Shown here one piece after another: positions 15,801 through 45,600 of a stretch of DNA of 64,000 bases (position 1 is the stretch's first letter; each line of letters starts with the position of its first letter). A program made the position numbers and the translations under genes. The notes beneath the pieces are model-generated. The model searched no databases. It saw nothing but the letters and a program-made list of their open reading frames with translations, and was not told the DNA's origin. The stretch is taken from NCBI RefSeq assembly GCF_964275005.1, contig NC_092688.1:48477748-48541747 (forward strand). The letters run 5' to 3'. This stretch comes from Diadema setosum. Lineage: Eukaryota; Echinodermata; Echinoidea; Diadematoida; Diadematidae.

Positions 15801-18800
15801 TTGTAATATCATTCCCCCTGCCTTCTGAAAGAGGCAAATCAAGTGTATTTTTATATGCGGGAAAATAAAAATTTTGAATTTTCTTTATATTTTCTTTACA
15901 TAGTTCTACACATGTGACATCACAAGCTGTAGTAGTCTTCTCATCCAACATTGTCCGTGTAGAAACTTCAAAAATTTATAACTTTTGAACGGATTGTCCA
16001 ATTTTCTGCAAACTCTCACTGATGTGTTCTCCTAATATTGCTGCAACAACTCAATCCACATGTCTATGAAGGTGAACTTGTCCTTTAAGAACATGATGTT
16101 CATTAATATTTCATGGATGTAGCATTTTATCACCACCATGATGAACAGCAAGCATTAAATACAAAATGGATACCTGTATTGAAACAATCAAATTGACTGA
16201 TTGTTCCTATAAAACAGGATTTTGTGAGCTCATCAAATGAATGTGTCACTTTTACATGTCTACTTTTCAATAACCAGGTTAGACAATTTGACTGTCACAA
16301 CAGACCTATTTTGAACATCAAGGGAAATCAAGATATTACCAGCAAAACAGGTTTTAAATTAATAATCATGAACCACATTCCACTAGCATGAAGTTTTACT
16401 AAGAAACTAGAAATGTCGCTATGGCGACTGGTGTATGCCTCCGCCATAATGCATGGTTCTCCTAATAGGTCTATAGTACAATGTGTTGACAATGTGTGAT
16501 GACAGTTTCACACAATTGGCAAAATATTAAAATGACAGGTTTGCCACAAATGTGCTGAATGTTCACTTTCCTAGAACTAGGTTCAATTGGATGAATGATT
16601 AAAACATGAGAGTGCAGGTATTCGGGGGAACTGATGATTTTTACTTGACTTTTGACCCTTTTATAAGTTTATGCATTGAGTAATTTTCAAGGTATTGAGA
16701 AAAGTATAATTTCAGTATCAAATGGTAAAATAGTATTATCTAAACCTGGCCTTTGACCTTTGACCTTACAGTTCCAAAGATAATCACTGTCAGGTAGAAC
16801 ATGCATAAATATGTAAGTTTCATGATAATACCATGAGTTACTTTTGAGATATGGAGGAAGAAGTGCAATTTAGCACTTTCACTTGACCTTTGACCTTTTG
16901 ACCTTTGACCTTTTGGCAAGAAACTTCCCACAGAATATATATTGGGTTATACATGCATGTGGATACATCAAGTTAAAAAATCCTTCAGGCATTGCATAAA
17001 TATAAGGAAAGTAGTGATATTTTGAGGAGTTGACCTTGACCTTTGACCCCCCTGACCTTTGACCCATGACCCCCAACTTCCCTAGATAATCACTGCCCAT
17101 CGGTACATGCATATATACTAAGTTCCATGAAGATACCTTGAACCATTTGCGAGATATGGAGAAAAACATGAAATTTCAACCTTTTTTTCACAAAATAACC
17201 TGTGACCTTTGACCTTTGACCCCGTGACCCTAAAATCCAAACAAAGTATCATCCCCCCAGGATATACCCTCATACCAAGTTTGATGCAAAACCACCTCAC
17301 TGTTCTTGAGATATCACCAAAAACAAAACGGGACGGACGGACGTACGTACGTACGGACGGACGGACGACCCGAAAACATAATGCCTCCGGCCACTTCGTT
17401 GGCGGAGGCATAAAAACAAACAAACTCTCAATAAAACTACTAAAATATCACTCTTGGGGGAAGTAAATTATGCCCAGGAAAAATGTGTTTGCTACAATGT
17501 AGCTCTCCTCACACCATTCTTCACTTTTACCTTTTTCAGTCATTTTGAGAAGATCTGATAATAAGGCCAAAGATACTATCGTGGTCTTTGCTGAACAAGG
17601 CCAAATTCACAAAGATGTTATGTGATCTCATTTACTGTACTCTCTCTTTTCCGAGCAAATTCCACTTTTCTTATTTGCCATTCTTTGGTTATATCTCCAA
17701 TGTACAATTTTTATGACAGCGCTTCATTTCACATATATGCTATTCATAACATTATTCAACTTCAGCTGTCATTCAAATCATCAAAACTACACATTCTGTC
17801 ATCTCCAACAAATTATAGAACAAGACTGACCTGTGTTTTCCATGTTTTTAACAAATGTTTCCTGTTTGCTCTTGAGATCTTCAAATGACTTAAGGAGCCT
17901 GGAGACAGCCTCCTTGGAAAACTTGCATCTCTCCTCCAGTCGGATGTCAATCTCATTCTGATCACAACTTGACATCATGGCCAGGAATGATGTGATTTCT
18001 TCATTGGCTGAGAAACACAAAGAAAAGGCATACACAATTCTTTAGTCACTAAATGCTGTGCACAATGACTTCATATGTCATCAAAGGTGTATCACAAGAA
18101 GTCATTAGACACTAGAAATGTCGCTATGGCGACTGGCATGCCTCCGCCATAATGCATGATTCTCCTAATAGGTCTGTAGTACATGTGGACAATGTGTGAT
18201 TAGATTTTCACAAAATTGGCAAAATATGAAAATGACACGTTTGTCACAAATGTATTAAATCTTCACCTTCCTTGACCGCTGGAGGTTTAATTGGATGAAT
18301 GAGAAAGCATGTTGGGGATTTTAGGACGTTTACTTGACTTTGACCCCTTCTTAAGTTTATACATTGAGTAATTTTCAAGGTATGAAGAAAAAGTGCAATT
18401 TCTGTATTGAATAGTAAATTGTTACCATTTTCACCTGCCCTTTGACCCTTGACCTTTGACCCTAAACTTCATGAGAGAATCATTGTCAGGCAGAACATGC
18501 ATAAATATGTACTAAGTTTCAAGATAACTTGAGCCATTTCTGAGATATGGAGGAAGAAGTAAAGATCAGCACTTTCACTTGATCTTTGACCTTTGACATT
18601 TTTGGCAAAAAACAAAACAACAACAAAAAACAAAACAAAACAAAACACTTCCCAGAGAATCTCTATTGGGTTAAACATGCATACACCAAGTTTAAAAAGA
18701 AAAAAATCCTGCAGGCATTGCATTTTAATGAGGGATATAGTAAAATTTTGAAGTGTTACCCATGACCTTTAACCCTGACCTTTGACCCCATGAACCCAAA

Positions 18801-21800
18801 ATTCCCTAGATAACCACTGCCAGTCAGTACATGCATATGTTCCATGAAGATACCTTGAACCATTTCCAAGATATGGAGATAAAAGTGAAATTTTAACATT
18901 TTTACTTGACCTTTTGACCTTTGACCCTAAACTTTCACCAGAGAATCTTAATTGGGTAATATATATGTATACACTAAGTATCAAGAAAATATATCTTCAG
19001 ACATTGCATAGATATGGGGGAAATAGTGAAATTTTGAGCATTTGACCTTGGCCTTTTTGACCTTTGACCGTGAGCATGTAACCCGAAAGTTGATAGGCAC
19101 AACTTCACCCCCTAATACACATACATGCCAAGTTTCATGAGGATACCTCAAAAGGTTTTTTAGTTACGCAGTCCACAAAATTCATTGCGGACGGACAGAA
19201 GGACGGACGGAAGGACGGACAACCCAAAAACATAATGCCTCTGGCACCACTTCCTGGCGGAGGCATAAAAATTCTGAATATCATCCTTCTAATTCATACT
19301 GATTTACAGATGCTACACTACATAGGAATTCACAGATAAAAAAATCATACGTTAGACCAAGATTTAAAATGTCAGGACAAATACATGTAAACACAGCATT
19401 GATTAGAAGTCATGAGTTAACAAACTGAATATTTCAATGATGACACTTTCTCCCAAGCAGCTACTTCATCAGCTATGACAAGAACAATAGACTGGCTGGT
19501 GTCATGTACAGAAATATCAAGTAACAGCTGTTGACTGTAAAGTAGGACTTGAACAACCACACAAAAACAAAAATCGAAATCTAGCCTGACAACCGCATAC
19601 TACTGAGAGCTGTACTACAGTGTACTTGAAGGAAATCATTCTAAACATGAATAATGAAATCATACTTTATATACAATGTAGCACTTATCAACAAATATTT
19701 GACAAAAATGGAACCAGTGTTCCTGCCACTAGAATGCTTGTTGCTTGCCTTAATGTACCTTTATGTCAAGTGAAATATAGCTTTGTCATCTGATGTGACA
19801 TTACATTGTAAGATATAATGTTCCCAGCGTCTGAAAGCTTTAAAATATTTCTAAAACCTTTTACAGAGCTACTTTCCTCATGATTCTACTCACTGTAGTC
19901 AATGACATCATACAAGAATAGACAGTTACTTAAAATGGTAAGATTCAGGAATACATGTATACTTTCTTTTGTGCACAAAGCATAAAACTACTGAAATGTT
20001 CTCATAAATTTTGATACCAAATATTGCTTTATTTTTCATTTTTATACACTGCTTTATTCAAAGATTGTTTTCTATGTAATGAGTTCTCATGCCATATTTA
20101 CTCCTTAATGAGTATACTTGACACTTTTTGCTTTCTTACAAAATGACTAGCCTCAATTCTTGATCACAACAGAAAGAGAAAAGGCGGAAGTGCTTGAATA
20201 GGTTTGCAAAGCTGCAACTGTAGAACTTTGAACCATGCTGACACCTTTTAAGCATTTCTCTCACAAACTGCTCCATGAAAAATTGATAAAAACAGTAACA
20301 ATTAACACTCTTCAAATTTGAGAATGTAAGTGATGACCTTGTTTAAATGCCATATTGGAAGGAAATGCTGCTGGGTAACCATAAAATTTGAGCAAGAAAG
20401 TTAAAATCTCCAGGATTACCTTTCTTTTCTTCCTTTATTCCATCCTTGCTGTCTGAATCAACATCCATCTTCTCCTGTGAGTCATCGGAACCTTCAATCC
20501 GAGCATCGGTCTGACTCTCAGTCTTGACCTCTGGTGCTTCAACTTTGACCTCTGTCCCTTCACTTTTCACATCAGGTTCCTGTTTGATGGATGGTTCTGT
20601 CTTGATCTCTGGTGAGGGTTCTGGGTCAGGTTTGATTGGAGGAAAGCTAACTATGGGAGGAAAGCTCACTATAGCTGGTTTCACCTCTGGCTCAGGAACA
20701 ACAAAGCGTGTCAGGAGAATCTTCAAGTCTTCTTCCAGCTGTATTCAGGACATAAAATGAGGGAATGTTAAAGACTTTTTCCACACATGCAGATATAGTG
20801 ACTCTGGTCATGCTAATGAGACTGCATATCTAATATGGTACATTTAGAAATTGCAGAAGCCAAAAGTCTGTATAAGGAATAATCATCTTTGCCCAACATC
20901 TTTGAGTGTACAGATTTCCATGCAAAAAAAAAAAAACACACAAAAAAAAACATGATGGCAAACAATATGACACAACACATGCCTGACTGCAAACTGTGTC
21001 CTTGGACAAAAACATAAAAAAGGAAGTTGACAAGAGGCAGGAGTTGTCTAATAGCTACCACATGTTTCTTTTTTTTTTGGTCTTTTTCTTTTTCTCAGTT
21101 AGGCAGTCACAGTGTACTGAGTATTAATCAATAGATGCCTTACACTTAGTCACATCAGCAAATTTGTAGCACATTATTCACAATTTCTATTAGGACTATA
21201 AAATATAAAGGACCATAGTTTGCATAAGAACAATCATACCTGTGTCCAATATTGATTCATCAATCCAAGGACGTATTCATCTGTGTTCTGCCTTTGCTGG
21301 AGCCGCTCTATACGCCCTCTAAGGTCATTTTCTACTCCATTCCGTGACTCCAAGCGTTCAACTAATTTTTTGTTCTGGAATCTCAACACTTTGATGTCCA
21401 TCTCCTCCTGTGGAAGGAAAGGTTGTATAAAGTAGAAAGAAAATACAAGGTGAATGTATCAGCAACCTCTGATGGTAGAGCATAGAGAGACAAAGTTTCT
21501 AACATTGCTAAGAGACATCTTTCTGTCATTATACAGATACACATACATACATAGCTGATTTTTGTCATTATTTCTTTTCCTAGAATCTGCTCATCACAGA
21601 ATTGTGATAGGTAAGAGGAAGTTTAGGGAGCTGTGTCATTATTCAGCACTCTTCTTTGAACATGAGATGCAGGCTCTGAGTAAAATAAAAACACATCTGA
21701 TATATTTTCCGCATCTGATGTTGTCTTGACACCGAGGTAACTGCCAGGACTTGCATCATTTCTGTCACTTTATACACTCTACGCCAGCATATTTCAAGTA

Positions 21801-27036: not shown

Positions 27037-28083
27037 CTAGGCTATGGCGCGCCAGAGGGGAATCAAATATTTATGTTCGACACCAACTAAAAAACCATTT
27101 CATCAAGTAAAATTTCATTCAACAAAAATATATTCGACAAAATATATATTTGATAAAAGATATATTCAATAAAATATGTATTTGACAAAAATGTATTCAA
27201 ACAAAATATATATTTGACAAAAAATATATAGGTTTGACCAAAATATATATTTCACCAAAATATATTTGACCAAAATTATATTTGACCAAAAATATATTTG
27301 ACCAAAATTATATTTGACCAAAAATATATTTGACCAAAAATATATTCGACAAAATATATATTTCACCAAAAATATATTTGACACAAAATATGTTTGACCC
27401 AAAATATATTTGACCAAAAATATCTGACGAAAATATATTCGACAAAATATATTCATTTCAATAAAAATATATTAGACCCAAAATATATTTGACAAAAAGT
27501 GTTTTACATACATGGCTTTCCATACTTTCGAAAAAAAAAAATCATTCGATGAACGAAAAACCATTCCATGAAAATACATTTCATGAGCTGAAATACGTTT
27601 CATGACAAAATACGTTCGACAAAACGAGTACGCAATATTCGCTGTGTACCAAGCTGGCCCATGCGACTTGTCTACATGCAGCGCAACACGTACGCATGCA
27701 TACACTGCACGTGTACCATGCATAGCACACTACAGCTAGCTAGCCCGTCATCGGCGCGGCGCAGCCGCTGGCCGCCGCGGTGGGATGCTCGATCGAGTGG
27801 TGGGTTTTGAGCGCGGTAGCTTTCGCGATTTCGATGTCGATCTAGCTCAAGACTTCACGCATGGGCCATGGGCTTCCACTGTTCTGAAAGTGGGAGTAGG
27901 AATGATCCCGCCATGGCGTTATGCAAAAGATTCAGCGCAGCTTAATCTCCGCCATTGCCAGTTGGCGAGCGCGAGATCGGGATCAGGTCGTGGCCGTGGC
28001 AGAGCAACATCAGCGGTAACCGCATGCAGCAGCGACCCCAACACGTTACTGGTTACAGCGCCCCGCGCCGGGGTTACATCATC
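27037..28083 (+). repeat. Long repeat copy A (AT minisatellite plus GC-rich segment)
   Basis: Homologous, in inverted orientation, to copy B at 41590-42517. Shared landmarks in order: ATGGCGCGCCAGAGGGGAAT, GTTCGACACCAACTAAAAAA, the ATATATTTGACCAAAA array, GATGAACGAAAAACCATTC, CACTGCACGTGT, TTTCGATGTC, GAAAGTGGGAGTAGGAA, GCGTTATGCAA, GCAACATCAGCGGTAACCGC, CCCCAACACGTTACTGG and GGGGTTACATCA, where similarity stops. A 105-codon frame at 27785 has no recognised domain and is not kept in B. Confidence 0.8.
27115..27500. repeat. AT-rich minisatellite in copy A
   Basis: About twenty imperfect units of 15-20 bp around AATATATTTGACCAAAA, with variants TTCGAC, TTCACC and TTTGACA. The reverse complement array lies at 42110-42430 in copy B. 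Confidence 0.9.
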
Positions 28084-28084
28084 A

Positions 28085-28200
28085 CAATACAAATACATAT
28101 AGTACTAGTATTTCATCACATCATCACTATACAACCAGCTATATACCTCATCACTATACAACCAGATACATACTTCATCACTACAACCAGATACTTCATT
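28085..28200. repeat. Short tandem repeat next to copy A
   Basis: Three to four imperfect units of about 27 bp around CATCACTATACAACCAGATA, immediately inside the inner end of copy A. Confidence 0.75.
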
Positions 28201-30809
28201 TGATGAATCTTCAAGTCTGATTGGTTAAGAATTGGGGCATACAGTCAGCAATTACACTCACCCTCAGGACCCAAACTGACCCATATTATACTAAACTGCC
28301 CTCTTGATTTGTAGCAGCACATTCATATGCACATGTAGGGTAAGCACTTGGCTTCAATAGTGAGAGAGGTGACCAATATCCAATATGATTGCAATGCACG
28401 TGAAATGGCAGCGCAGATGTGTGAATTGGCTATCCAAGAGCTATTGCCATCAACCTACTAAATTTTCATCTACAATTTTCTTCATTATATAATACATGTA
28501 TGTACAGATATGAACTGCTTTTCTTCAAGGCAGTTGTTGCTATCGGTGCCCCTGTAAGGTTCCTTGGGTCATAGCACAGAGCCGAGATCCCTCGTGGTAA
28601 TGATATCAACAATTCCCCGAAGAGCAGTCCATATTTGCACTCTAGGAGATTGTCATTAAAAACTTCATGTCTGAATAGATGGGAGAAGTGTTGTGTGGTG
28701 GTTAGTAGAGGTGCCATTGAACTACGGCAAACATATTCCATAAATAGTATGTAGTATAAAAATGTCAATAAATGTTTGTAGAATATGTTGAAGGAATTGA
28801 ACTACAGTCAACCTTGCCCATGTTGAATCTATTTGGACTGAAGAAATAGCTTCGATCAGAGAAAATTCAACTAATGAGGGATTAAAATTAATAGAATGTA
28901 CCGGTATAAAGAGAAGAAGACTTGAAAAGGACCTTTGACTTGGGTGATTATTTGACTTATGCGAGGCCAGCTTAAGCAAGGTTGACTGTATTTTCATTTG
29001 TGTTGGAACTTTTGCAGCAGTTATCAAAGAATGAATAAAACTGGATACAAATATAGAATCCATGTTATAAAACTTGCAAGGATGATACACTAATTTCATC
29101 ACAATCATAGTCATGGATTGAAAAGGAACACATATATGCTATTATGTGCCAAGTTTTGTTTTTTTTTCTTTTATGTGAGGGTGTGTGTGTGTGTGTGTTT
29201 TCATTTGATTGCTCTTATGGTTTGTTCACTTATAGGTCTCCATACTTTTCAACACTGTTATTATTCCTCGAGTACTAGTAGTATGTTGCACTGAATCTTG
29301 TATGAAAAAAACAAGCAAACACCAAAACCTCTAATTTTGCAGTCATTCACCTGGAGCATATACATTTGTACTGTACTCTTCTGAGCAGCAGTAAACTAAT
29401 TTGCCCATTCACAATGAACTGGTTGTTTCCAGTCGCACAACTTACAATATATATAGAAAACTTAGTTTGTGGGATGGCATCATTCAGTTGTGTACACAGC
29501 TATATGATGTACGTAGTAACTATCTCACTTTTTCAGTCATAAATTTATCTTGTGTATCATTCATCCACTCACGCATTCAATCACTCCTTTCACTTTGTAT
29601 GCCAAGTTAACAAGGAAAGATATTCGTGCCATACCAATCACAAGATGGAAATTTAATTGCAGTCATTAACAATTCTGGACATAAAAGAAATACAAAGTTT
29701 ATGTAAATAACACTGTATATTCAAATTGGCTTGCCATTATTCAACAAGACAGCTTGCACTGCTGTTGTATGTATTCCACACAACCTACTAAAGAGCTCTG
29801 AACCACACTGCTTTCACAGTAGTTTGGGTACAGTCCCTTTGTTATCAGTCCATATTTTCCATTCACAACAGACCCAAGAGATGTCACCTGTAGGCCACAC
29901 AGTTTTGGGGGATAAATTGTTTCCTGTCATGAATCGCCCACTTATGGCCAGAAGTAACAAGATTTCAGAGGCTGAACTTATTTCACAGATGAGCCAGCAG
30001 GCAGTATTTCTAACATTATGGCATTGTTATTTCATGTTACTGAGTAAGATCTGAATATTACTGAGTACATGTATTACCAGGTAAAATTTGTATGCTTACT
30101 GTTATGTTGTAAAAGTTGCATCGCAGATTACAATTTGCACTGAAATAACCCCCATATTTCTCCTGTTGAAACATGAGAGATATTGAAACATACATTTTCT
30201 TCATCAGACACTCACAGATAAAACATAATAACATATGATAACCAATAATTACAGTATATAGTGCCTTTTCAAAAAAGACTTGAAGCACTTCAACAATTAC
30301 AACACTGATCCACTTACAATGTAACATGTAGGGGGCTCGTAGGCATGGCACATCCAGTCAATATTTGAAATATTACACTTTGAAAAGTCGCATGTAATTA
30401 ATGCAGGTTTGATTCATTTCAGAAGGGATCTTTCTTTTCTATCAAAAACAGATCCCTTAACTTCCAAGCTTCAATCATATTTCTTACATGTCATGTGGTT
30501 GAAGCTTCTCTGGCATTGCCAGATTAATGCCACAGTCAAGGTGTCACAAATTCCAATCTTTAAAATTCATGAAATCAAATTCCAATCTTCTACAATCTAA
30601 ATGAGGCAATTGGCACAAATGTACATGCCTTGTCACATATCTTTTTTTTTTTCTATATTTTTCAAATTCATTTCATTTCAGTCTCACAATAATTAATGAA
30701 TGTTAATTTTGAATGGCAAGTACAATGCTTCTGCTCTGAAATTATGCTGTATACTGTAAACCTGTTTCAATCAGAGGGGGCAGAAATTTGCTTACGACAC
30801 AAGTTAGCC
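28201..30809. other. No gene recognised apart from a Tc1-like MITE and a GT microsatellite
   Basis: Open frames here are short and lack domain resemblance. A GT microsatellite is at about 29179-29199. The element at 28805-28988 is described separately. Confidence 0.5.
28805..28988. mobile_element. Tc1/mariner-like MITE, 184 bp
   Basis: The termini CAGTCAACCTTGC and GCAAGGTTGACTG are perfect inverted repeats flanked by TA on both sides, as for the IS630-Tc1-mariner superfamily. Confidence 0.85.
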
Positions 30810-30901
30810 TTAACCCAATGAGGACTGACTGATTTTGCGACAACAAGCATTTCCCATAGACACCTGCCCTAGTATACTCCGACTGGTTCTCAATTGGTTA
30901 A
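30810..30901. mobile_element. 92 bp TTAA-flanked hairpin MITE
   Basis: Begins TTAACCCAATGAGGAC and ends TCTCAATTGGTTAA, with core CATTTCCCATAGACACCTGC. Same family as 22757-22850, 46294-46386 and 52967-53059. Confidence 0.85.
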
Positions 30902-32429
30902 GAGGAAACTCTGTTAAGCCAGACTTGAAGCACCTCCAGACATAAAGATTCTTACTCGCAAGTGGTACATGTACACTGATCTTTGAAGGCACTGAACACA
31001 TAATAAAATTCTTGCTAACATGAAAACTTGGCTTACACCAGTCTACTGTCAGCCGCCATTACAGGACAAAGATCATCAATGTAAAGTATTGTATCATCCA
31101 ATGAAGTCCCATTCTCTGAGTATGACTACTGCACATCAATAGTTTATACAGGATCCTGCTGTGTACTTCACTGTGAAAACAACCTACAAACAATCAGAGT
31201 TAACATGATACAGACTACAACTGTGTCAAAGATAAGGTGGGTCTGAAAGTCAAGACTACACACAAGGCCTTATGAACATCAATGCTGAACTGTTACCACA
31301 TACTAGTATATTATTCTGTATGTACAACTTTAATAAAGATGTGGAGTGTAAAACAGATGCACCCATCGTGTCACTGACTTCATTTGTATTTCCAGTTCCA
31401 GTGTATATTGTAAGCAACTTTGTTCAACTTTGTCAATAAACAAAACTATTTCACATTGATCACTTAAGTAAACAGGATTGAAGTCAACATCCCTTTAAAA
31501 TTAACTCTGAGACAAATAGAACTATGCAGATATACATCAGTCTAGAGATACCACAAAATTACACTTGCTGTAGGAAGTCTTTAATATTAGAATCTCAGAT
31601 AAGCTGCAAAACATGATCAAGAGAGGCACTCCTGTATGGATTGTACATTGCTAAGTAATTGAAAAATAAAAACTTTATAAGACCAAGGAGGTACTAGTAC
31701 CTCCTTGATAAGACGATAATTTGTACATTTACGAATAATTTCTGAATCCGCAAGAAAGATTCATATACACTCAACAACACTGACAAACAGACAGACACAC
31801 AATAAAAACTCACACACCTATGAAGGAACTTTGTTCACAATGTGGACTAAATCATATTTTTGAACTAAGGAAAACCCACTAGAACTTTAGAAGACTGAGA
31901 GCTAAACACTATCAATTCTGTTTATGCTCTTCCAGCATTATCACAGCCAATGTGAAAAACTGAATGTGGATTTTTCTTCCCAACACCAGGATGTAAATCC
32001 TGCCTTTCCACTGTAAATCTTACTGTTTTCAACAATCTACATATGGCAGTTTATAGTTTACAGTCAGGGGTCCTTCAGCTCATATCATGTAATCTAACAA
32101 TGTAAGTACATTTCAGTTGGACCACAGTGATCAAATTAATCTATCATAAAATTTCATTCAAAGTTAAATGGTGCAGTGTTTCGAGATATTTACGTACATT
32201 GTAACCTCTGGCAATTTAAAGAGTCATGAATACTGAGGAAACACCACAGACAATATTTTTGTACTGAGCAAGGTGATATCCAATATTCTTACAGAGCTAG
32301 ACCTGCTCATAATAAAGAGGATAAAATGGGTTTACCCCTTGCATAGAGACTATAAAATCTCTATCCCATTAAAAGTGCTATTCATTGGAGTGGGTAAAAG
32401 GAAAGCGATGGAAGGTTAATGGCAGGATG

Positions 32430-32870
32430 ATGTCACGGTTTAGGGACAATATGAAGAATGATAGGAAAATGATGTGATGTCACATTAGTGTCATGATGAT
32501 GTCACAGTGTTTGGTGATGATATCACAATAATGTGAGAATGATGCTATGATGTTATAAAGGTATAAGAATTATGTCTTGATGACAATGACGATGATGATG
32601 ATGATTTAGTCTTATTCATAGAGGGTAGCCACTTTAGTGATCTTTGCACTGTTCTCCGTGTGGTTCCTGTTCACATTCATGAATGTAATGCAGCTATCAG
32701 GATTCTGTCATGATAATCTAATGATGATGATGATGTGAGGATGTCATGTTGATAATGAGCTGGCGATGTGATAGGGATGTAATATTGTCATAAAAATAAT
32801 ACAAACATTATTATGATGTCATGATGACTGAGGATGTGACATAAACACATTGAGTGGATTAGACATTGGA
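32430..32870. repeat. Degenerate TGATGATGTCAC-type repeat tract
   Basis: The stretch is crowded with GATGATG, TGATGTCA and ATGTCAC words and a (GATGAT)n core near 32590. It is probably a decayed minisatellite. An A run of about 26 follows at 32936-32961. No gene is seen between 30902 and 33655. Confidence 0.6.
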
Positions 32871-32933
32871 ATGATTGGCAATGAGCCATATAATCAATCT
32901 TTCGCCTTCCCCTAACATCATCAGCTATCAACC

Positions 32934-32966
<33 letters not shown>

Positions 32967-33655
32967 TTGACTGGGAGTGATGGGTTGACATTGGTATTGG
33001 TATTCCTCTGAGTAACCAGTGCCATAAAACTTGCAAATATATCAAAGACGATTCTGACAGAGAATGTCATCACAACTATGAAATCTGTATGTTTACTTGG
33101 GAAAGGGGAGGGAGAGAACTAACCTGAATTCAATTTCATAGGGGCATGATTTGTTTTGTCCCTTTAAGCAGCATTACACATTAAAATGTTCTTGTCATCT
33201 TATCATCATACAAATCTGTAACTGCTGAAAGACTGCAATAGTGCAGATGAAAGAGTTGGTATTCATGTACCAATTGCAAAATTTCAAATACATGAGATCA
33301 AATGCTACAGATTCAAGAAATGAACTAAATATGAATGCATTACTCAATACTGGCAACCTTCATCATCAATAAAAACCATTATCAGTCATAATTGTTTAAA
33401 GTAAATGCCCATTATAAGAACCATGAGAAACACTTCAATATAAAACCTTGTGCAAACAGGAACACTTCCATAAGGCAAAAAAAAAAAAAAAATCATTGTA
33501 TTGGCGTAACCCGCCCGACCCTAGAAAACCCCCCGACCCTGAACTTTTCACACACAAAAAAAAGGAAATACATCGTTTTTACTGAGAGAGGGCGCGATAC
33601 GGGTTTGCGAATTATCAAAAACAACAACAACAACAACAACACCTGGTGTCGGAAA

Positions 33656-34218
33656 ATGGCCGTGCAGTACAGCGTGTTGGCGACTGATAAGTCCGGTTCG
33701 AAGATTTTATTTAGTATTATTCAGAGAATCGATTTGTCAGTGGTGCTGGGTGATTTAGCCCAGGAATTTCTGACCGGTATGTCGTGACGGCTTTTAAACT
33801 GGTTATATAACAAATTTTTGGATGCAACAGACCCTCTCTATCGAATGGGGTTTCGTTAAATATGAGTTTTACACCTAAAATACAGGTAGCAGGTACAATT
33901 GTACACAGTCTTCACTTATTAATGACTTTCACTGAGTATACCCAACCAAACAAATGTCCGTGCACCAGTACATGTATGAAGATTTTGACAGATTGAATGC
34001 GTCAGAAATACTGCAAAACCACATAAGATTCCTGCCAAGTATCAATGAGACCATCGTCAGGTCAAACAAGTTCAAAATCACACAGTTGCTTGATGATGTG
34101 ACGCCGACTCAACCGCCGATGACCCTACTTTTAATCTCCGGCACAACTAAGACAGAGGAAGTCAGCATCACCAAGAAACAGATATCTGAAATGAGCAACA
34201 AAAATCAGTCAATCGAGA
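33656..34218 (+). CDS. Unidentified gene start: two in-phase exons (partial)
   Basis: Exon 1 is 33656-33776 (ATG, 40 codons plus 1 nt, donor GTATGT). Exon 2 is 33937-34218 (acceptor after CACTGAG, donor GTAAGT, ending in phase 1). Together they encode about 134 residues without a stop: MAVQYSVLATDKSGSKILFS at the start, later RSNKFKITQLLDDVTPTQPP and MTLLLISGTTKTEEVSIT. No motif was recognised. A matching third exon was not found before the next gene. This may be the 5' part of a gene whose remainder is diverged or missing, or another gene fragment of the 28-41.6 kb block. A CAA-repeat and a CCCGACCCTNNAAA-type tract lie just upstream of the ATG. Confidence 0.45.
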
Positions 34219-34730
34219 GTAAGTCATTAAAAGGAGTTCTATGGAAAAGAGTAAAACTGTGCCTGATTGCCCCTCTAATTAAACAGACATGGAAGTCATT
34301 GTAGTGCATTAGACATTAAATTAGTCAATTATACCATCCAGTCAGCAGCCTATGAAACCAAATATATAGCATTATTTTCCTACAAATATCTTATAAAGTG
34401 AAAAAAAGTATAAGAAACCTCTAATTTTCTCAAAACATGAAGCAGAGCAGAATACAAGAAATCCTACAGAAGTGCTGAGGTTTAGTTGTGAAGAAGTACA
34501 ATCATAATGACAGATGTTTTACACATAGTTAACTCATTCAATTTTTTTGCTTTTAAAGGACACATTTGTACACATTAGCGTACAATGGGCAATAATTTTA
34601 CAATGTGTACAATTAACAATTAGCCTGTGATATTTAAATGACGGCCCTTGGTTTCAACAATAACATGGCAAAAGTGTGCGAATACACCAGTGGGATGGGA
34701 GAAGGGGAGGGAAGTTCATGCCACACTCAC

Positions 34731-34831
34731 CTTATACTGACAGTGCTTCCATCTGGAATATTTCCTGTAGTGGTGGGAAGTGGATAACCAACATCAGTTA
34801 CATCTTGAAGGACAGCTAACCAAGGCATGAT
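34731..34831 (-). other. Orphan exon-like open segment
   Basis: On the minus strand a 101 nt open segment is bounded by a good acceptor (ACATGCAG) and a good donor (AAG|GTGAGT). In the frame starting at its first base it reads IMPWLAVLQDVTDVGYPLP then TTTGNIPDGSTVSI. I do not recognise it. It lies 3' of the ATP2C and NECAB pieces on the same strand but does not match the sequence that should follow either. It may be another captured or decayed exon of the same block. Confidence 0.35.
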
Positions 34832-35453
34832 CTGCATGTTTGACAACATTACTTATCAAAATTATCACTCATTACTTTATGTTGAAACGTACTGACAAAG
34901 TCTGTACACAATTGAGTAATTTCATCACCAGTGGTGCATCAGACAGTATGTATGGTCTTGTATTCATACATGTATGCTACACGTCTTTTTATGACTTTGT
35001 CTGACACAGAGAAGGCTGAGGCAGGATTGCATCTAATCGAGAGGAGCAGTCATTATTACAGTGCCATCTGGACTGCTTGACAGGCACAAGTTGATAAATC
35101 CCAGCTCAAGATAGTATCATGCTTGTCCTTATACTCTGAAAAGGCTTCATGGAGCAAAACAATTCATTGCATACTGTATGTGAAGATGAATGCTGCTACT
35201 GCATGTACTAATATACACAGCCAAGTATCTATAAAGACAATGGATAAATCTAATCAAATCAATACATGCATCATTATCTAATATTACAATCCGCATGACA
35301 AAGCATCTGACAGAAGATAGCTTGCTAAATGCACTAATGTTATCACTCGGCACAATGTAGCAAGGGCATAATATTACAATTATGTAAAGGAAGAACTTGA
35401 CCAATATTAATAGAAATGTGTGTACAGTCATGGACAATAAAGGGAGCACTAAC

Positions 35454-36381
35454 CTCTCTCCAGAAGACCCAGAGGATCCCCACGACGATGATGAGGGCAG
35501 ACATGACTACATAAATAAGAAGAGGTCTGGTGATCATGGGGTCACGAACCTAACGAGGAGGCTTCCTTATTACATCCTTGTCCAATGGCTCCACTCCGAG
35601 ACTGGACAGAGGAGTGGGGAGAGAATGAAACATTATCATACAGTAATGTGAACTACAGAATGCACAATTTTTTTTTTCATGTCAGTATTTGTTCATTATC
35701 CATCTTTGATAATACATGTATACACACTCTTTCTTTCTTTTTTTTAAAGAATGAACATATATTTGTCCTTTCTTCCAAATTAACAATAAAATCTGTAGCC
35801 ATATAGACAGAAAGGATTTTTGGAAACAACATTAATGCGTAGAGTAGAAATAGTTGGCGTCCAGACTTTCCAATAAGAAGGGTCACAAAGAGAAGGAGAG
35901 TGGCATACAAATGAGACTTCGAAACACTGCTGATTTGAGAGGTATTGATTTTTACTTTTACAAAATTATTTTCCCCATGACTGAAGAATTATAATGGTAC
36001 TCACTAAGATGCTGCTTTAGCCGATGAAAAGGTAAAATGAAATATTTTGAAACCAAAGCTTTAATGAGGTTCAAAGATATTTGCTTGAAGAAATTTGATT
36101 GATTGATTGATTAATTGATTGATTGATTGATTGACTGATTGATTGATTGTGAATCTTTATGCAGAGTGGCCTGATTAGACTGAATCAGAATAATGACTGC
36201 ACTGCCGGCATAATTGCCCTCCCCCTTCAGAATACTCTCAGACCTGCTGATGTGTGCACATTGTGGCTCACCCTTGAGCAGGTGGTCCTTCCATGATGAC
36301 GTTGATCCAAAGGCTCTGCATGGCATTGAGTGGGTTGGGAAACCTCATGATGATGGATAGGGCTATCAGGGTCCCAGGCAG
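35454..36381 (-). pseudogene. ATP2C1-like: Two-exon fragment of a secretory-pathway Ca2+/Mn2+ ATPase (SPCA, ATP2C1/2 family)
   Basis: Exon 36381-36272 encodes [18 protein letters not shown] then [14 protein letters not shown]. Exon 35601-35454 encodes LGVEPLDKDVIRKPPR, then a TAG, then VRDPMITRPLLIYVVMSALI and ends GILWVFWRE. The exons share phase (GG|T), and the 670 bp intron has GT-AG ends. They match the P-type ATPase stretch with the [20 protein letters not shown] motif and the following transmembrane helix. The rest of the roughly 900-residue pump (phosphorylation site, hinge, C-terminal helices) was not found on either side. A premature stop where the family has Asn, plus the missing exons, argues for a decayed, partially copied gene. 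Retention of the intron means it came by DNA copying, not retrotransposition. A sequencing error at the stop is possible but would not explain the missing exons. Confidence 0.85.
36098..36150. repeat. TTGA/GATT microsatellite
   Basis: About twelve GATT units with one or two interruptions, between the two ATP2C exons and the unique 3' side. Confidence 0.9.
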
Positions 36382-37149
36382 CTATGCTCCTACCAACACA
36401 GAGAAACAAACAAACAAACAAAATCATATGTTGCAATCTATCTTCATAGATCCTTCACTTCATACTTTTGCATAATCATTAATGTGTCCATGCAAATTGG
36501 TCATTACGGGATAAGTTTTCATCAATAATTCAAATTTCAACTGATTTCTTGCAAAGTAGAAATCAATACATAATCTTATCACAATTTATATTCATGTTTG
36601 TTTCAATCAAATTACAAATGATTATAAATGATTACACATATTTACATCATATTTGTTATTAAGGGGTCATTTTCAATAAGACTACGTTGTACTTCTCATG
36701 ATTTCTCCATTATCATATTTGACACAGTGCATTTTTGTTTGTTTGTTTGTGTTTTTAATACAGATTTTGTCAACCAATAATGAAAGTGAAAATAAATGAG
36801 ATGAATGAATGAAATGGATGAATGAATAACGTTTGTTGGAGAATAAGCATCAACCCATTTTAATTCTTCCGTGAAAACACTGTTTAGAGTCTTTAATGCC
36901 TATATTTGAATAATTATTCCACCATACAATTATTTTGAACGGAATGAAGTATACAATCTTTCGTTTTTGGCATGCAGAACTCAATTGAAGCAAAAATAGT
37001 GAACCATTTTAAGCCAAACATTTTCGTGTGTATTCCAATTTTGCAAATTTTGTGAGATCAAAGAGTCACAAAATCAAAATACATGTACATGCAAAAGTTC
37101 TTGTTTACACTGTATGCACTGTATGCATTGAATTCAAGTGGCATGCTGA

Positions 37150-38255
37150 ACTAGAAATGTCGCTAAGGCGACTGGTATGCCTCCGCCATAATGCATGATT
37201 CTCCTAATAGGTCTACTGTACATGTGGACAATGTGTGATTACATTTTCACACAATTGGCAAAATATTAAAATAACAAGTTTGTCACAAATGTGTTGAATA
37301 TTCACCTTCCTTGACCTAAGTTTAATTGGATGAATAGGAGAGCATGCATTTGGGGATTTAGGGACTTTAACTTGACTTTGCCCATTCATAAGTTTATGCA
37401 TTGAGTACTTTTCAAGGTATGGAGAAAAAGTGCAATTTCTGTATTGAAAAGTACATTGTTACCATTTTCATCTGGCCTTTGACCGTAAAATTCATAGGAT
37501 AATCACTGTCAGGCAGAACATGCATAAATATGTAGAAAGTTTCAAGATACCTTGAGCCACTTCTGAGATATGGAGGAAAAAGTTAGTTCAGCACTTTCCC
37601 TTGATCTTTGACCTTTTGACCTTTAAGGCAAAAAAAAAAAAAAGAAAAGAAAAAGTTTCCAGAGAATCTCTATCAGGTTATACATGCATACAAGTGTAAA
37701 AAAAAAAATAATCCCGCTGGCATTGCATAAATATGAGGGAAATAGTAAAATGTTGAAGTGTTGCCCTTTTCTTTGGCCCCTGACCTTTGACCCCATGAAC
37801 CCTAAATTCTCTAGATAATCATTGTCAGTCAGTACATGTACATTTGTATATATGCTATGTTCCATGAAGATACCATGAACAATTTCCAAGTTACGGACAA
37901 AAAAATATTGTTACTTGACCTTTTGACCTTTGACCTCATGACCCCAAACTTCCACCAGAGAATCTTAATTGGGTAATACATGTATACATTAAGTTTTAAG
38001 AAAATATCCTCAGGCATTGCATAGATATGGTGGAAATAGTGAAATTTTACGTATTTGACCTTGACCTTTTGACCTTTGATCTTGAGCATGTGCACCCAAA
38101 AGTTGATAGGCACAACTTCACCCCCTAATACACATACATGCCAAGTTTCATTACGATACCTCAAAACGTTTTTTAGTTACGCTGTCCACAAAATTCATTA
38201 CGGACGGACAACCCGAAAACATAATGCCTCCGGCACCACTTCGTGGCGGAGGCAT
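37150..38255. mobile_element. TATGCCTCCGCCA element, copy 3
   Basis: Starts ACTAGAAATGTCGCTAAGGC and ends TCGTGGCGGAGGCAT, in the same orientation as copies 1 and 2. It lies between the ATP2C and NECAB fragments and again carries TGACCTTTGACC words. A partial TCGCGAA-family repeat (about 37010-37140) abuts it on the left. Confidence 0.85.
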
Positions 38256-39040
38256 AAAAAAAAAAGAAAAAAAAAGGCTGTCAGCTGTGATTCAAGAAAA
38301 TTTCACACTGCAAATATTTCTTGCTTTACAGTATGCACAAAACTACTTCCATTGGGGTGTAAGAACAACATTTTGTGTAAGTAGAGAATAGAGATTGTTA
38401 AGAATTGGGTGTGCACTTTTGATTATTGCAACACAAGATAGATACTCTAGAATCTACTTTTTGAAACAAAAATTTTTACAGTATCCTGTCTTCATTTCTT
38501 TCTGAATCTACAACTCCTCAAAGATTAGCTGATTGATGTAACTACCTTTATGAGGGTCGTAAAATTTTGATATACACTGAACAGGATCCTCTGATAAAAT
38601 AGTTATCGCAGCACAAGCATGGCTCCTGTAAGCAATATGTTGATTAAACAGAATTTCCCCACTAGTTAAAGTCAGGGTTAACCACTCTGGAATTGGACTC
38701 CAGCTATCACTGGGGTAACATGACTCTCACCTGGTATAGCCATTGAAGACAGCTGCTCTGGTTTGTCCAAAAGATCCACATTCTCTCGACGGAAAGACTT
38801 TGACTTGGCACCAGCAAAGTTCCTGAAAGAATACAAGACAAGCTTATCAACAAAGAACATGATACATGTACTACAAAATACCACAAATCATAAGCAATTA
38901 CATCTGGTACAGAAATCCTATGACCCACCAAACAAACAAATAAACACAAACTACAATAACAGTGAACATATTCTGAACAAGACACTTTTTTCTTCTTTTA
39001 ATACTGCACAATTTATTCTGACAAATGAAGTATGGAATTG

Positions 39041-39458
39041 CGACTGATTGACAAATTGCCCCACATCGACGTAAATAAGCACTGAATTGATCAGTGTTTT
39101 AGTAGTAGCCATGATAAAAAATCATGGGCGTACATAGTCGAGCAGGATTCGAACCTACAACCTCCTGATCACCGGACAGGCGTCATCTCCACTAGACCAC
39201 CGAGCTTTCGCCCGACAGCAAGTGTTGGTTCTAATCCTTATAGCATGCAGCGGGTACTGCTTTGTTATTCAAATTCATGAAATTCTTCCGTCAAGATGTT
39301 TTCATTGCGACTGATTGACAAATTGCCCCACATCGACGTAAATATCATGGCTACTACTAAAACACTGATCAATTCAGTGCTTATTTACGTCGATGTGGGG
39401 CAATTTGTCAATCAGTCGCAATGAAAACATCTCGACGGAAGAATTTCATGAATTTGAC
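39041..39458 (-). mobile_element. tRNA-derived SINE with fold-back 5' part and exact 14 bp target duplication
   Basis: GAAGTATGGAATTG is duplicated exactly at 39027-39040 and 39459-39472. On the minus strand the insertion contains a tRNA-related head (A box GTGGTCTAGTGG, B box GGTTCGAATCC, about 39212-39136) and a tail ending GGGGCAATTTGTCAATCAGT. Upstream of the head lies a second tail segment and an inverted copy of it, forming about 75 bp arms around a roughly 37 nt loop (about 39284-39458). It is embedded within the NECAB-like fragment. Confidence 0.88.
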
Positions 39459-39931
39459 GAAGTATGGAATTGTTTGCTTGATTTTCTTCTGAACTTAATA
39501 ATCTATGCTTTATTATAAGGAGCTACAGTGTCAAACCTTGGCAAAACCATCACTGGATCAATAGAGATCAACACAAAGTGACTCACGTCTTCCAGTCCTC
39601 TTCTGTTTCCCAGATCTCGTAGACGACATAGTTACAGGTCCCCTCATGGCCTCAAACATTCTCACACTGTAGCTGCCATTGTGTATTAGTGGAAACAACA
39701 GAAATACAATGCATGACATTACTGGGTAAATACTGTATACATGTACCTTTTGGAACATAATTGTATCAACATATAATAAACTTGATGTTGAAAAGATGAA
39801 CTGAAATGTTTCCAATTAGTACCATATTGATGTACCGGTACTTGTTTCAGGTTTCTCTAGGTACTGCTATTATAGTTTGCCTACAATATATTTAGAGGCA
39901 CATATATTGTAATTCTGCAAAGGGGAAAGCA

Positions 39932-39962
39932 ATGATAAATGATGATGATGATGATGATGATA
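39932..39962. repeat. GAT microsatellite
   Basis: About ten ATG/GAT triplets, followed by AT-rich sequence without a gene. Confidence 0.9.
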
Positions 39963-40192
39963 ATCATGACTAGAAACATCATTTTCATTATTCAAGTAAT
40001 AACAACAGTGATAATTCATCATGAAAATTTTATTATGATCACTACCATCACTACTTTATTATTCCTAATATTACTAGCTTTGAAAAAACACACCAAATCA
40101 CTATATTCCAAGTTTATCACAAAAGTAAAAAACATTCACAATGGGGCATAAAGTCTTGACTTCCTAAACTTCATCTTTGAAACTTTAGTTTC

Positions 40193-40193
<1 letters not shown>

Positions 40194-40227
<34 letters not shown>
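40194..40227. repeat. CA microsatellite
   Basis: About seventeen CA dinucleotides. Confidence 0.95.
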
Positions 40228-40228
<1 letters not shown>

Positions 40229-41589
40229 TAAATAACAATAAAGAGGTAAAATTTGAACAACAATTTTCAAACAGTACAAGTACTTGACTAAGTTAGTACT
40301 TGACTGGATTAGGCATCCAGAATTCTGCTCTGTTGAAAGATAGGGATGGCTGTTTATATCACATACCTATATCCTCTGAGAATTGTTCATTCAGCTTATT
40401 CAATCTCATAACTTTCCATAAGAAACATCACATTCATAGAAGAAAAAAAAAAGAAATAAAGTCAATTTTCCTAACTCTGTGATTAGTATAATATTACTGA
40501 AGCACTTTCCATTCAAAATATCACACCAGTGGGAATCTAGCAATGAGGACACGATGTCTTACCTCACACATCCATCATCTCTTCCTGCTGCATCAACGTA
40601 TGTCCTCAGGTTGTCACGGAAACTTCATATTCTTTTCCTCCTGTACGGCGAACTACCTCCCGACAATGAATGCCTGTGGAGAGTAATCGTGATCGCGTGA
40701 ATAACTGCAGTCAGCAACGCGCTGTCGTAATGATACTGACCTGTGTGACAGTAACTCTAATTGTTAGTCTCATGGGGTGGGGGGGGGGGGGAGAACAACT
40801 AGCAATCTATATTTCATGATGAGTTACAGATTACTCCAGGTTAGAAGGCATATAACCTTGTTTTTTATGATGTCTATGATGGTCCCCCTTATTTAAAAGC
40901 CACCGTAATGTGTAACGTTAACATTAGACAGCGCAAGCTGTGAGCGCGAGCAGAAACAACCACAACTAAGTCAACGTTGAATTCAATGCTTCCCCATGTC
41001 TCATTTAATTCAAATTTATGTGAGTGACTGGAAATGAGATACTAAGGAATCCCTGAAATTTTGGTGGAATTTGGTAGAGTGAAATTTGAGGTATATCTTC
41101 TTGCCTCTTAGATACGATATTGGCTTACTGCCAATACTGCATTACCATTTTACTACCGCCGGAATCTGTCTCTAAGAAGCCCATGACCGACGGCAACGAG
41201 AAGAGACAGATCTCAGACAAATTTCAATGGTCGCGTTCTGTCCACACGTAGTGCTCCTCTACAAGTTAGCGTGGATATGTCTTCCTGGACATTTTGCTGA
41301 CTAAACCATACAGTGACGATACAGATACAGATCTCATCGGTCTACGACAGTTTACCAACCTGGGGTTGCTGAGGCTGAGCCCGTATCCGTAGTGCCGGTG
41401 CGGTGCCGGTGGTTGAGCCTGAGCCTATTTACAGCCTCAGGCTGTGGTCTTGCCCTTGGCCTGCTTGATGTTTGGGTTGGAGACCGGATCGTCATGGCAG
41501 GCGCTGCCCAGTCACAGCCCAGTCGCTGTACGTAGGATATTCGCACAGCGTACCTCCGTCTGGTCGGGCTATTCGTAAACGCTGCCGCT

Positions 41590-42517
41590 GATGTAACCCC
41601 CGCCCGGGGCGGCCGGGCGCTGTACCAGTAACGTGTTGGGGTCGCTGCTGCGGTTACCGCTGATGTTGCTCTGCTCGTGCTAACTTAGTCTCCAAGTATG
41701 TCCATGACCGGGCGACCTGATCCCGATCGATCTCGCGCTCGTCATCTCACTGGCAATGGCGGAGCTGAATCTCTTGCATAACGCCATCGAGATCGTTCCT
41801 ACTCCCACTTTCAGAAGAGACAGACATCGAAATCGCTAATGCTTTGTATAATAGCGCGCGTACCACACGCGAGCGTCTTACGTCTAGCTCTCACCGCACG
41901 GTATACGGGCTAGCAAGCGCGCGCGGATGTGCATGCGCATGCAATTTGCAGATTGATGGTGTATACCACAGTGTACACGCCACGACACGTGCAGTGTAAG
42001 CTTGCGCTGCGCTGTATTGTCATCGAATGACTTTTTATTTTTATGGAATGATTTTTTGTTCATCGAATGGTTTTTTGTTCATCGAATGATTTCTTGTCGT
42101 AAGTATAGAACGCCATGTCAAATATATCTTGGGTCTAATATATTTTTGGTGAAATATATATATTTTTTGTCGAATATATTTTGGTCAAATATGATTTTTG
42201 GTCAAATATATTTTTTGTCAAATATATTTTGGGTCAAACATAGTTTGTGTCAAATATATTTTTGATCAAATATATTTTTGTGAAATATATTTTTGGTGAA
42301 ACATATATATTTTTGTCAAATATATATTTTGTCGAATATATTTCGGTCAAACCTTCATATTTTCTTGTCAAATATATATTTTGTTTGAATATATATTTTA
42401 TGAAATATATATTTTATCGAACATATTTTTGTGGAATGAAATTTAAATTGATGAAATGGTTTTTTAGTTGGTGTCGAACATAATTATTTGATTCCCTTCT
42501 GGCGTGCCATACTAGGC
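41590..42517 (-). repeat. Long repeat copy B, inverted relative to copy A
   Basis: Reverse complement of the landmark series of copy A, from TGATGTAACCCC at its inner end to ATTCCCTTCTGGCGTGCCAT at its outer end. The AT array is at 42110-42430. Many small indels separate A and B, so they are not a recent duplication. The outer end stops about 95 bp before the ATG of the VPS9 gene. Confidence 0.8.
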
Positions 42518-42611
42518 CTACAGTAATAGTATCCGAATAAGTTGTCCTTGCTTCTAAGATCGTACACTCTTTGAGGTATCTTGTATACGGCACAACTACT
42601 ACTGCACAACT

Positions 42612-45600
42612 ATGGCTGACCACGAAGATTTAGAATTTAACCCATTGTACAAAGCTCTCCAGGTAATTAGCATACTGTGAGCATGTATGATAAGCATTGA
42701 TGTATCTGTGACTGATTTTTAGTATTTTTCCGTCGATTGATTTGTGCGTGTTGGTGCCAGTGCAGTTTCAAAGGAGTGGCTAGGATAAGCGAACGTTATG
42801 TCGGTCCCACATACTTCATTATATGTCGTGCTGATTTGCAGTGCAGAACACTGCTTATAATAAGCCAGTTCGGAGTTAACTATACACAGCCCTGTCGCTG
42901 TACACAAGTGTAAGTCGCGACAGGGCTGTACGGTGTGGACACTCCGTAATCTCTGTATTCGGGGCGCCGACGCGATTTTGAATTCACTGCACCATATTTG
43001 TTACTAAGACTAGACACATAAGGTGAAAACTTTATCTATTTAGCTACCGTTTTCAGCTATTGATATTGATATACTCATTCTATAACTTACCAAAAATTGC
43101 ACCTTTTTTAATCCTGTACGCCGCAGAATTGCAGAAATGATTCGAAATGTCGGCGCAGCACTGGGCAAAGGGGGCGCTGTCGACTTCGCGGGCGCAGTGC
43201 CGTATCTTAATATACGGCACTGCGCGGGCGTACAAACTCTAGCAGCGCAATTTGCATCGTTCAAAGCTGGGAAAGGTTTATTTTGAATGGCCCCGCGATG
43301 ATCACAGCATTCCGGGTTAAGGTTGGACTTTTTGCTCAGTGTATGTTGCGTGAGGGCTCACTATGGACTGAAATACCATGCTCATAGTCCAAGTATCTCA
43401 ATTCACGTGAGTGATTCGTAAAATGTGTGAAAAGAATGTAGAAATTTTCAATAGTTTTGTTGTTGTGTGGCCGTGTTCGAGGGGTTTAGTAGACATGTGT
43501 ATGATATGGGGTTCCGTAGATATGTGTATCACACACCGTCAGACCCCGTGCTAGCTTAGCGCACGGGGTCTGGTCGGGCTAGTTCGGAGTTAGCTCATGG
43601 GCACATTGGTACGAATGACCTTTCTTTTTTCTCAGTTGGTTAGGGGCACTTCACTCGTTTTCAGAGCGACGTAATGCATAAGCTTTACGTAACAATTTAT
43701 GGGATTCATCAATCCCGTTCAAACAAAGAATAAACTTGCGTAGACCAGACACTACCACACCAGGGCCCCGTTGCAAGAAAGTTGCAATCAATTGCAAATA
43801 ATTGCTAATTTTGAAACAACGATTCTTATTGGCTCAGGGTCTGCCCTATTAAGAAGACATGCATGCAACAATGATTTTGATTGGCCAGTGACAATCAGTT
43901 GCAAGTTGCGTTTAAACGCAAAGTTTCTAGCAACGGGGCCCAGATGAGCAGAATGATCTGTCAATTCAGACTTGAGACTTGACTGTCTTGAGAAAGCATC
44001 CATTTCATTATTTTGCATTGGATGTAGGCCTATTGACAATCTCTTGCTATTGACATTCACGACTATTGATATTGCCAAATACCACTTTTGCTGTCAGGTG
44101 GATGTGCTGGCAAGCAGCATTTATAAGGATTACATGAATAATCATTACATGACAGATGCTTATCCCAGTAAATTTAAAAACCAACATGCCTGTTGGTCCG
44201 AATGACCTTGCTTCTGCTCATGCGCAAAGTGGAACTCCGAACTGGCTTATTTACATACATGTAGGAGGCGAATACTAACTGTTAAAATAGATTCTAACGT
44301 TAGAGATTTCCGAATGATCCATCCTATTTGTGGTAGGATTGGATTTAGTCTGGATAGAAAGATCCGTCTGTCGGGAGGAGTCTTTCATCTTATTTTCATT
44401 TTTTTTTTTTATTCACCTTATGCTTATAGTTATGGGGCCTATTTTTTTATTTTTATTTTTTCACCTTATCGCTTGCGCTCTTAACTTTAGTCCGTGTAGA
44501 TCTACTCCCATTACAGCCATGGCCAATGGGGCATGGCCCATGATGGGCATGGACTTGGATGATTGTGTATCTATATTGTGTATATACCCGACATCACGAC
44601 GCGACAACCACTGACGACCAGATACAGACTGATCTTCACCACTGATCTTCCGCTTAAGATATACTTGTACTATCATACACATGACACTGCAGAATTATTG
44701 GTTACTGGTTGCAAATACCAAGAAGTTGATCATTGTTGACTGAGTATATGATTGAAGTAGGGTAAGAGTACCAGTATTCGGTCACCTACCAGAATTCGGT
44801 CACTTATCACTAATCACCAGCCAGTAAGTTCAACTGTCACAACACACACAAATCACATCAATTCACATACTTGCACACTCAATCACAACAGAAAAGTCCC
44901 TTAGTCCCCTCCTAAAATTTATCCAAAATCCCAAATTTCACCGTCAAAAGTGCAGAATCGGCGAGACTTTCCCAAAGCGCGCGCGGATTAAGCCCAGTTT
45001 TAAGAGTACGGGTCGCCAAAAAAGGCGCTAAAAATCAAGAAATGCGTCATTCTCTTGCAGGATTTTGTTGCTTATCACAACCTCGGAGTGCGATGGTATC
45101 CTAAAAAATGCAAAAGAAAAACAATTTCCATACGTGCCGCTGCAGTGACTCGATGTACAAGGGTGGAATGCAAGTGCCGATTCCCCAGTATTCGGTCACC
45201 AACGGGCGCCGCAGTGTCCCCGATGCAATTTTGCGCCAACAAGGTAGTGCGCAGCGCATTTTTCAGCTGCCTTGAACATGCATTGACTTTGAACGCGCAT
45301 ATAGCATGACCGAATTCTGATCGCGGTGACCGTATTCTGGGGGGTTTTCAAGGTGATATATTTTGGGATTTTGTGAAATTCTGTGAGGTATTTGACAAAA
45401 TGAAATTTGAGATTAAAGAAATTTGATATATTTCACATACATTGTACATTGCTGTAGATATGATGTATGTGTGTATTATTTTAATTTAAAAAATATTGCA
45501 GAGAAGCTTAAATGACCGAATACTGGGGGTTTTACCCTATTGTGAATATATGTTCCCCAATTTTCCCAAATGTACTCAAAAGCTGTATCACTTCGGTGAT

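Follow-up and report, generated by a model that had tools for sequence, protein, structure and literature searches.

A giant nonautonomous transposon of Diadema setosum, most likely of the IS3EU superfamily, with a cargo from two neighboring host genes

The window analyzed here, a stretch of 64,000 nucleotides, is situated on contig C4 of the 912.7-Mb Diadema setosum genome (G000; 102 contigs, by whose numbers other loci are given below; the COX1 gene on C102 gives a sensible translation when AAA is taken as Asn and TGA as Trp, as in the echinoderm mitochondrial code). Positions 27,043 to 42,511 of the window constitute one transposon of 15,469 bp with long imperfect inverted repeats. Its left terminal inverted repeat (TIR; copy A, 27,043 to 28,091, plus strand) starts with TATGGCGCGCC, and its right one (copy B, 41,587 to 42,511, minus strand) ends in ...GGCGTGCCATA, so that the element termini read TATGGC..GCCATA; the inner boundaries of both arms are approximate. 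Each arm contains a tract of 16-bp tandem repeats (27,122 to 27,497 in the left arm and 42,117 to 42,431 in the right). Complementarity between A and B amounts to 91% in the outer 132 nt, 83% over the outer 372/395 bp, and 73% of the ungapped columns over about 1.0 kb, and the differences between them represent a left/right asymmetry common to many copies of the element. Comparison of the flanks revealed a 6-bp target-site duplication, CTAGGC, that directly abuts both ends (27,037 to 27,042 and 42,512 to 42,517). The original prediction of two facing repeats with matching outer ends is thus sound, and the block that it delimited, 27,037 to 42,517, is exactly the element with the duplication that it had proposed looking for at the outer ends. 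Beyond the right end (42,512 to 42,670), an ATG-initiated frame starts roughly 100 bp from the element and continues to a candidate splice donor, suggesting that the element may have inserted into the promoter or 5' leader of a gene; Pfam searches with three frames outside the block yielded no match that reached the cutoff.

Between the arms we recovered the predicted exon pieces of ATP2C and of a NECAB-like gene, all on the minus strand and all with approximate limits. These include part of the final ATP2C coding exon (34,725 to 34,800), an ATP2C exon with a premature TAG in place of the parental CAG (35,455 to 35,608), the preceding ATP2C exon, of which 22 residues were given (36,255 to 36,350), and two NECAB-like exons, NFAGAKSKSFRRENVDLLDKPEQLSSMAIP (38,735 to 38,827) and NYVVYEIWETEEDWK (39,585 to 39,680), the second of which carries a frameshifting 8-bp insertion in the window copy. 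Outside the element copies, the ATP2C and NECAB-like exon patterns are each found in one place, C9:802,573 (plus strand) and C9:815,678 (minus strand), only 13 kb apart, which indicates that the cargo came from one locus. Judging from the alignments, this parental locus is C9:802 to 816 kb (aligned, C9:802,341 to 816,329), with ATP2C and the NECAB-like gene as convergent neighbors. Hence, the search for the parental genes suggested in the original prediction succeeded, but its description of the two as unrelated host genes has to be replaced by that of a single locus.

In the C9 region that we read (797,000 to 822,000), further ATP2C exons precede the captured stretch, and by our reading the last exon ends near 805.5 kb. 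A parental ATP2C exon retrieved ATP2C1 as its best match in the PDB (E = 1.2e-17) and the Cation_ATPase_C domain in Pfam (E = 2.4e-11). The neighbor on the opposite strand showed an EF-hand match just below the Pfam cutoff (E = 5.3e-5); its EF-hand exon recovered weak EF-hand matches from the PDB that are not diagnostic (best E = 0.017), and two of its exons, when joined, gave a weak match to the ABM domain (E = 0.11). We tentatively call this gene NECAB-like, a name suggested by these weak EF-hand and ABM matches.

The element aligns to the parental locus with 9,282 of its 15,469 bases. Cargo block 1 (28,182 to 36,566, minus strand) gives a gapped reverse alignment to C9:802,341 to 811,516 and comprises the 3' part of ATP2C with downstream DNA, whereas block 2 (36,831 to 40,834, plus strand) aligns directly, with insertions inside, to C9:814,079 to 816,329 and comprises the 3' part of the NECAB-like gene; the junction of the inverted and direct blocks occupies 36,567 to 36,830. 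From these alignments, about 14 kb would have been captured, of which about 9 kb is inverted, and some 2.5 kb of parental DNA separating the two blocks is absent. The Pack-type reading, with introns taken up along with the rest of the genomic DNA, therefore largely holds. The orphan exon and the unfinished gene start also predicted inside the block, without coordinates, were assigned by us to two plus-strand frames (33,392 to 33,784 and 33,948 to 34,304); neither showed a Pfam match up to an E value of 1, and for this reason both are likely to be chance frames, the second lying, in addition, in DNA that aligns to the parental ATP2C 3' end.

Genome searches, each scored for its best 40 candidates, recovered matches to A in at least about 40 places and to B in at least about 38, and the interior stretches 28,250 to 31,500 and 33,500 to 37,100 matched largely the same loci. 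The identity of the copies is mostly 96 to 100%, with 90% as the lowest full match for 28,250 to 31,500. Four copies, on C5, C7, C15, and C17, are 99 to 100% identical to the window copy in the stretches searched, and the insertion in the window consequently need not be old, as had been supposed from the indels between A and B. A 27-base terminus pattern allowing up to 3 mismatches found 86 matches, as opposed to none with the reversed control. The flanks fetched allowed 40 pairs to be made from facing ends separated by less than 70 kb; the lengths of the pairs are 2.57 to 63.4 kb (most of them 14 to 18 kb). A perfect 6-bp duplication flanks 36 of the 40, comprising 36 different hexamers; the remaining four (C1:40,502,620, C4:20,759,355, C12:39,207,182, and C24:11,783,134) are without a matching duplication. 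The end at C10:95,893 is without a partner, and the copies at C3:16,984,463 and C12:18,090,920 were left out of the pairs (one without fetched ends and one with a damaged end). Copies bearing the cargo number at least 41 and are distributed over 18 contigs: pattern searches with the NECAB-like exon and with the ATP2C exon containing the stop codon each recovered 41 element copies, and the pattern for the preceding ATP2C exon (up to 1 mismatch) recovered 39. The arrangement of A, block, and B therefore recurs across the genome, as the original prediction had proposed checking, and A, B, and the interior pair up at shared loci, rather than A and B occurring singly and independently. This establishes A and B as parts of one unit and, with the duplications around the pairs, rules out independent insertions of the two. 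Likewise, the suggested fold-back-driven duplication hub gives way to a TIR element with 6-bp duplications.

Several copies show peculiarities at their ends. At C24:17,859,377 to 17,890,739, two copies are positioned head to head with 10 bp between them and have separate but overlapping 6-bp duplications, pointing to insertion beside an existing end. In the copy at C12:39,207,182, one of those without a matching duplication, the outer flank repeats the terminal 16 bases of the element, as if the end were doubled. Finally, right ends with the left-end variant (the GCGCGCCAGAGGGG form) are found at C1:40,502,620, C2:18,718,188, C5:18,829,580, C9:22,651,655, C19:34,337,405, and other places, which looks like the outcome of one arm converting the other within a subfamily.

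Comparison of the copies with one another and with the parental locus offers contextual information on their history. The K2P distance between element and parent is 0.151 for ten aligned segments taken together (7,675 columns) and 0.136 for four segments chosen because they overlap divergent copies on C3 and C4 (3,446 columns), whereas the window copy is at 0.031 from each of these two copies (2,051 and 2,855 columns, respectively). A distance of 0.14 to 0.15 to the parent, against 0.03 between the window copy and the two divergent ones, suggests an old capture and a later spread. At the affected ATP2C codon, the parent and these two divergent copies have CAG, and the other 39 of the 41 have a stop (38 TAG and one TAA); the absence of the stop from the former indicates decay within the element lineage. 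The junction of the cargo blocks is also present in the divergent C3 copy (96% identity over 600 bp), and the inversion accordingly predates the split of that copy from the window copy. Six copies lack one and the same stretch of about 1.2 kb (36,483 to 37,682), indicating that derived copies multiply too.

Two insertions are nested in the element. The first (37,149 to 38,262) is a dispersed repeat that is found in neither the parent nor the divergent C3 copy; this repeat of about 1.1 kb has two further copies in the window (16,484 to 17,420 and 18,111 to 19,271) and another next to the parental locus (C9:819.4 to 820.8 kb). The second (39,041 to 39,461; 421 bp), also absent from the parent, has palindromic arms (80 nt at 100% and 76 nt at 99%), is flanked by a 14-bp direct repeat detected by eye, and contains a tRNA-like sequence on the minus strand (Rfam tRNA match, 39.6 bits), for which ARAGORN in bacterial mode reported no tRNA. 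Taken together, the sequence comparisons suggest that capture and inversion came first, nested insertion and decay followed, and the spread came last.

How the element arose can be envisaged in more than one way. The two arms enclose what is almost an unbroken stretch of chromosome, as would be the case if two separate short elements had come to lie around that stretch and were then moved by their outer ends. Such a composite arrangement may be how the element arose; still, the terminus pattern (up to 3 mismatches) is present only at the two outer ends in the window and at neither inner end, and we give this origin a small though appreciable weight. A second scenario concerns the gap between the long stem of the element (K2P of about 0.13 to 0.15) and its shallow crown (about 0.03), with no intermediate copies among the matches listed, which is what horizontal transfer would be expected to produce: uptake of the cargo could have taken place in another echinoderm, with the element later arriving in this genome together with a foreign two-gene segment. 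We consider this unlikely, since vertical persistence with the loss of old copies would account for the gap more simply.

As for its affinities, we interpret the element as a giant nonautonomous TIR transposon, very probably of the IS3EU superfamily ("Pack-IS3EU"), with the superfamily assignment drawn from the terminal sequences and the duplication length. IS3EU elements are described as having 6-bp duplications, TAYGG..CCRTA ends, and TIRs of >30 bp (PMC12730594) or, in another account, TA..TA ends and duplications of usually 6 bp (PMC10045372). The present element agrees with them in its duplications at 36 of 40 paired copies, its TATGGC..GCCATA termini, and TIRs that exceed 30 bp. Long TIRs with tandem repeats are also known from the sea urchin TU foldback elements. 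A foldback or Mutator-type element comparable to TU, Tetris, or Drosophila FB4, with captured DNA and a Mutator-like transposase, would account for the 16-bp tandem repeats in the long TIRs, which resemble those of Tetris and FB4 (PMC8277862 and PMC4079207), and foldback elements have been reported from sea urchin (PMC4079207), the host here being an echinoderm. However, the duplications described for Tetris and FB4 measure 8 to 10 bp (PMC8277862 and PMC4079207), as opposed to the 6 bp seen here, and the ends match IS3EU, making this reading quite improbable. A nonautonomous relative of Polinton/Maverick would share the 6-bp duplications (PMC10045372) and the overall size of 15.5 kb, but we deem it very improbable, since the longest stop-to-stop frame, of 138 aa, rules out an intact frame for a polymerase, integrase, or capsid and the TATGG..CCATA ends fit IS3EU (PMC12730594). 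The resemblance of the cargo to ordinary gene pieces with introns might suggest a segmental duplication or an assembly artifact between two independent repeat insertions, but the unit occurs on 18 contigs, and a separate duplication surrounds it at 36 of 40 sites, so that the chance of this is negligible.

Returning to the Pack-IS3EU interpretation, we searched for a transposase both inside and outside the element. Pfam searches with 24 of the 68 frames of the block recovered no IS3EU transposase, though a gene split by many introns could escape them; the sole fitting family was Cation_ATPase_C in an ATP2C exon (E = 0.0088, below the cutoff), and the few other matches were below the cutoff and chance-like. 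As no frame in the element is of transposase size, movement in trans appears likely. A looser pattern for the ends found 251 matches, against 5 in the control, which indicates that related elements exist. The search with rve_3, which scored 150 of 809 candidates, was uninformative, as many of these were in frames of >1,000 aa with a retroelement-like appearance. Ten frames from loci beside related ends or within a long copy (L081, L082, and L097 to L101) gave no match to an IS3EU-type transposase in Pfam; they contained reverse transcriptases, a YqaJ-type fragment (at L097, outside the small element there), and one DDE_Tnp_4 (PIF/Harbinger-type) fragment. The last (L100; C8:19,235,926 to 19,236,258), about 2.1 kb inside a related end, is the only transposase seen near such an end and speaks weakly against IS3EU. 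Harbinger relatives have duplications of 0, 2, or 3 bp (PMC12730594), and for this reason we take the fragment to be a probable nested insertion.

No autonomous partner was recognized among the candidates. Two long end-to-end copies, of 63 kb on C4 and 37 kb on C3, consist in the parts read (about 20 kb of the former and the central part of the latter) of element interior and nested DNA, with a non-LTR-type reverse transcriptase (RVT_1) in the nested DNA of the C4 copy and no IS3EU transposase. At the loci with related ends (L084 to L086 and L096 to L101), the parts read measured about 5 kb or less, and the Pfam searches just described, which covered frames of L097 to L101 among these loci, gave no IS3EU-type transposase. 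These loci include a miniature element of about 116 bp with related ends (L085; C14:36,630,401) and a 4.45-kb element with related ends and its own tandem repeats near one end (L086/L096; C10:20,678,316 to 20,682,767).

Based on these observations, we propose the following history. Through faulty repair, template switching, or joint transposition of two nearby elements, an ancestor of the element would long ago have acquired about 14 kb, consisting of the 3' end of ATP2C, intergenic DNA, and the 3' part of the neighboring NECAB-like gene, with one part of the cargo inverted. The lineage would then have gained nested insertions and internal deletions, followed by a recent spread to about forty copies. 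A DDE transposase from an IS3EU element elsewhere would recognize both ends and move the unit, cutting the target with a 6-bp stagger upon insertion, and the cargo would be decayed baggage.

Viewed against known systems, the element differs from described IS3EU elements in that no transposase was seen inside and in its arms, which measure about 1 kb, contain 16-bp tandem repeats, and enclose a host two-gene segment. In structure, it resembles the Pack-TIRs of animals, i.e., TIR elements around non-TE DNA with a parent elsewhere in the genome, the captured DNA of some being reportedly transcribed (PMC8277862): its TIRs and duplication surround non-TE DNA from a parental locus, and no internal transposase gene is apparent among frames of up to 138 aa, from which a gene of many short exons could escape. 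The animal survey reported 370 Pack-TIRs in 100 genomes, four of them multicopy, with a median captured region of 224 bp; 323 belong to hAT or TcMariner, and the main text does not mention IS3EU (PMC8277862). Here, by comparison, 9,282 bases align to a 14-kb parental stretch and there are at least 41 copies. Our search of the literature, covering open-license papers, found neither a similar case nor IS3EU as a Pack-TIR superfamily. Thus, the element is a Pack-TIR by structure, far beyond the typical size and number in that survey and probably of a superfamily unreported for Pack-TIRs in the literature searched.

Plant Pack-MULEs, which belong to another superfamily, similarly hold gene fragments between TIRs and depend on a transposase in trans, but in their first survey none exceeded 7 kb and most were of 1 to 2 kb (PMC6431247). 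Large loads of gene fragments are known from Helitrons (up to 39 kb with nine fragments in maize and 14 kb in fungi), which, however, are rolling-circle elements without TIRs and 6-bp duplications (PMC6431247). DNA transposition is described as falling markedly above a cargo of 6 kb, even if artificial constructs of 100 to 200 kb still move and Helitrons carry large loads (PMC6431247). The present case, a 15.5-kb element with a two-gene segment, shows that such a load can be retained by a natural TIR element of an animal during its spread to at least 41 copies. With parent, divergent, and young copies together, the succession of events from capture and inversion to decay and spread can be followed within one genome.
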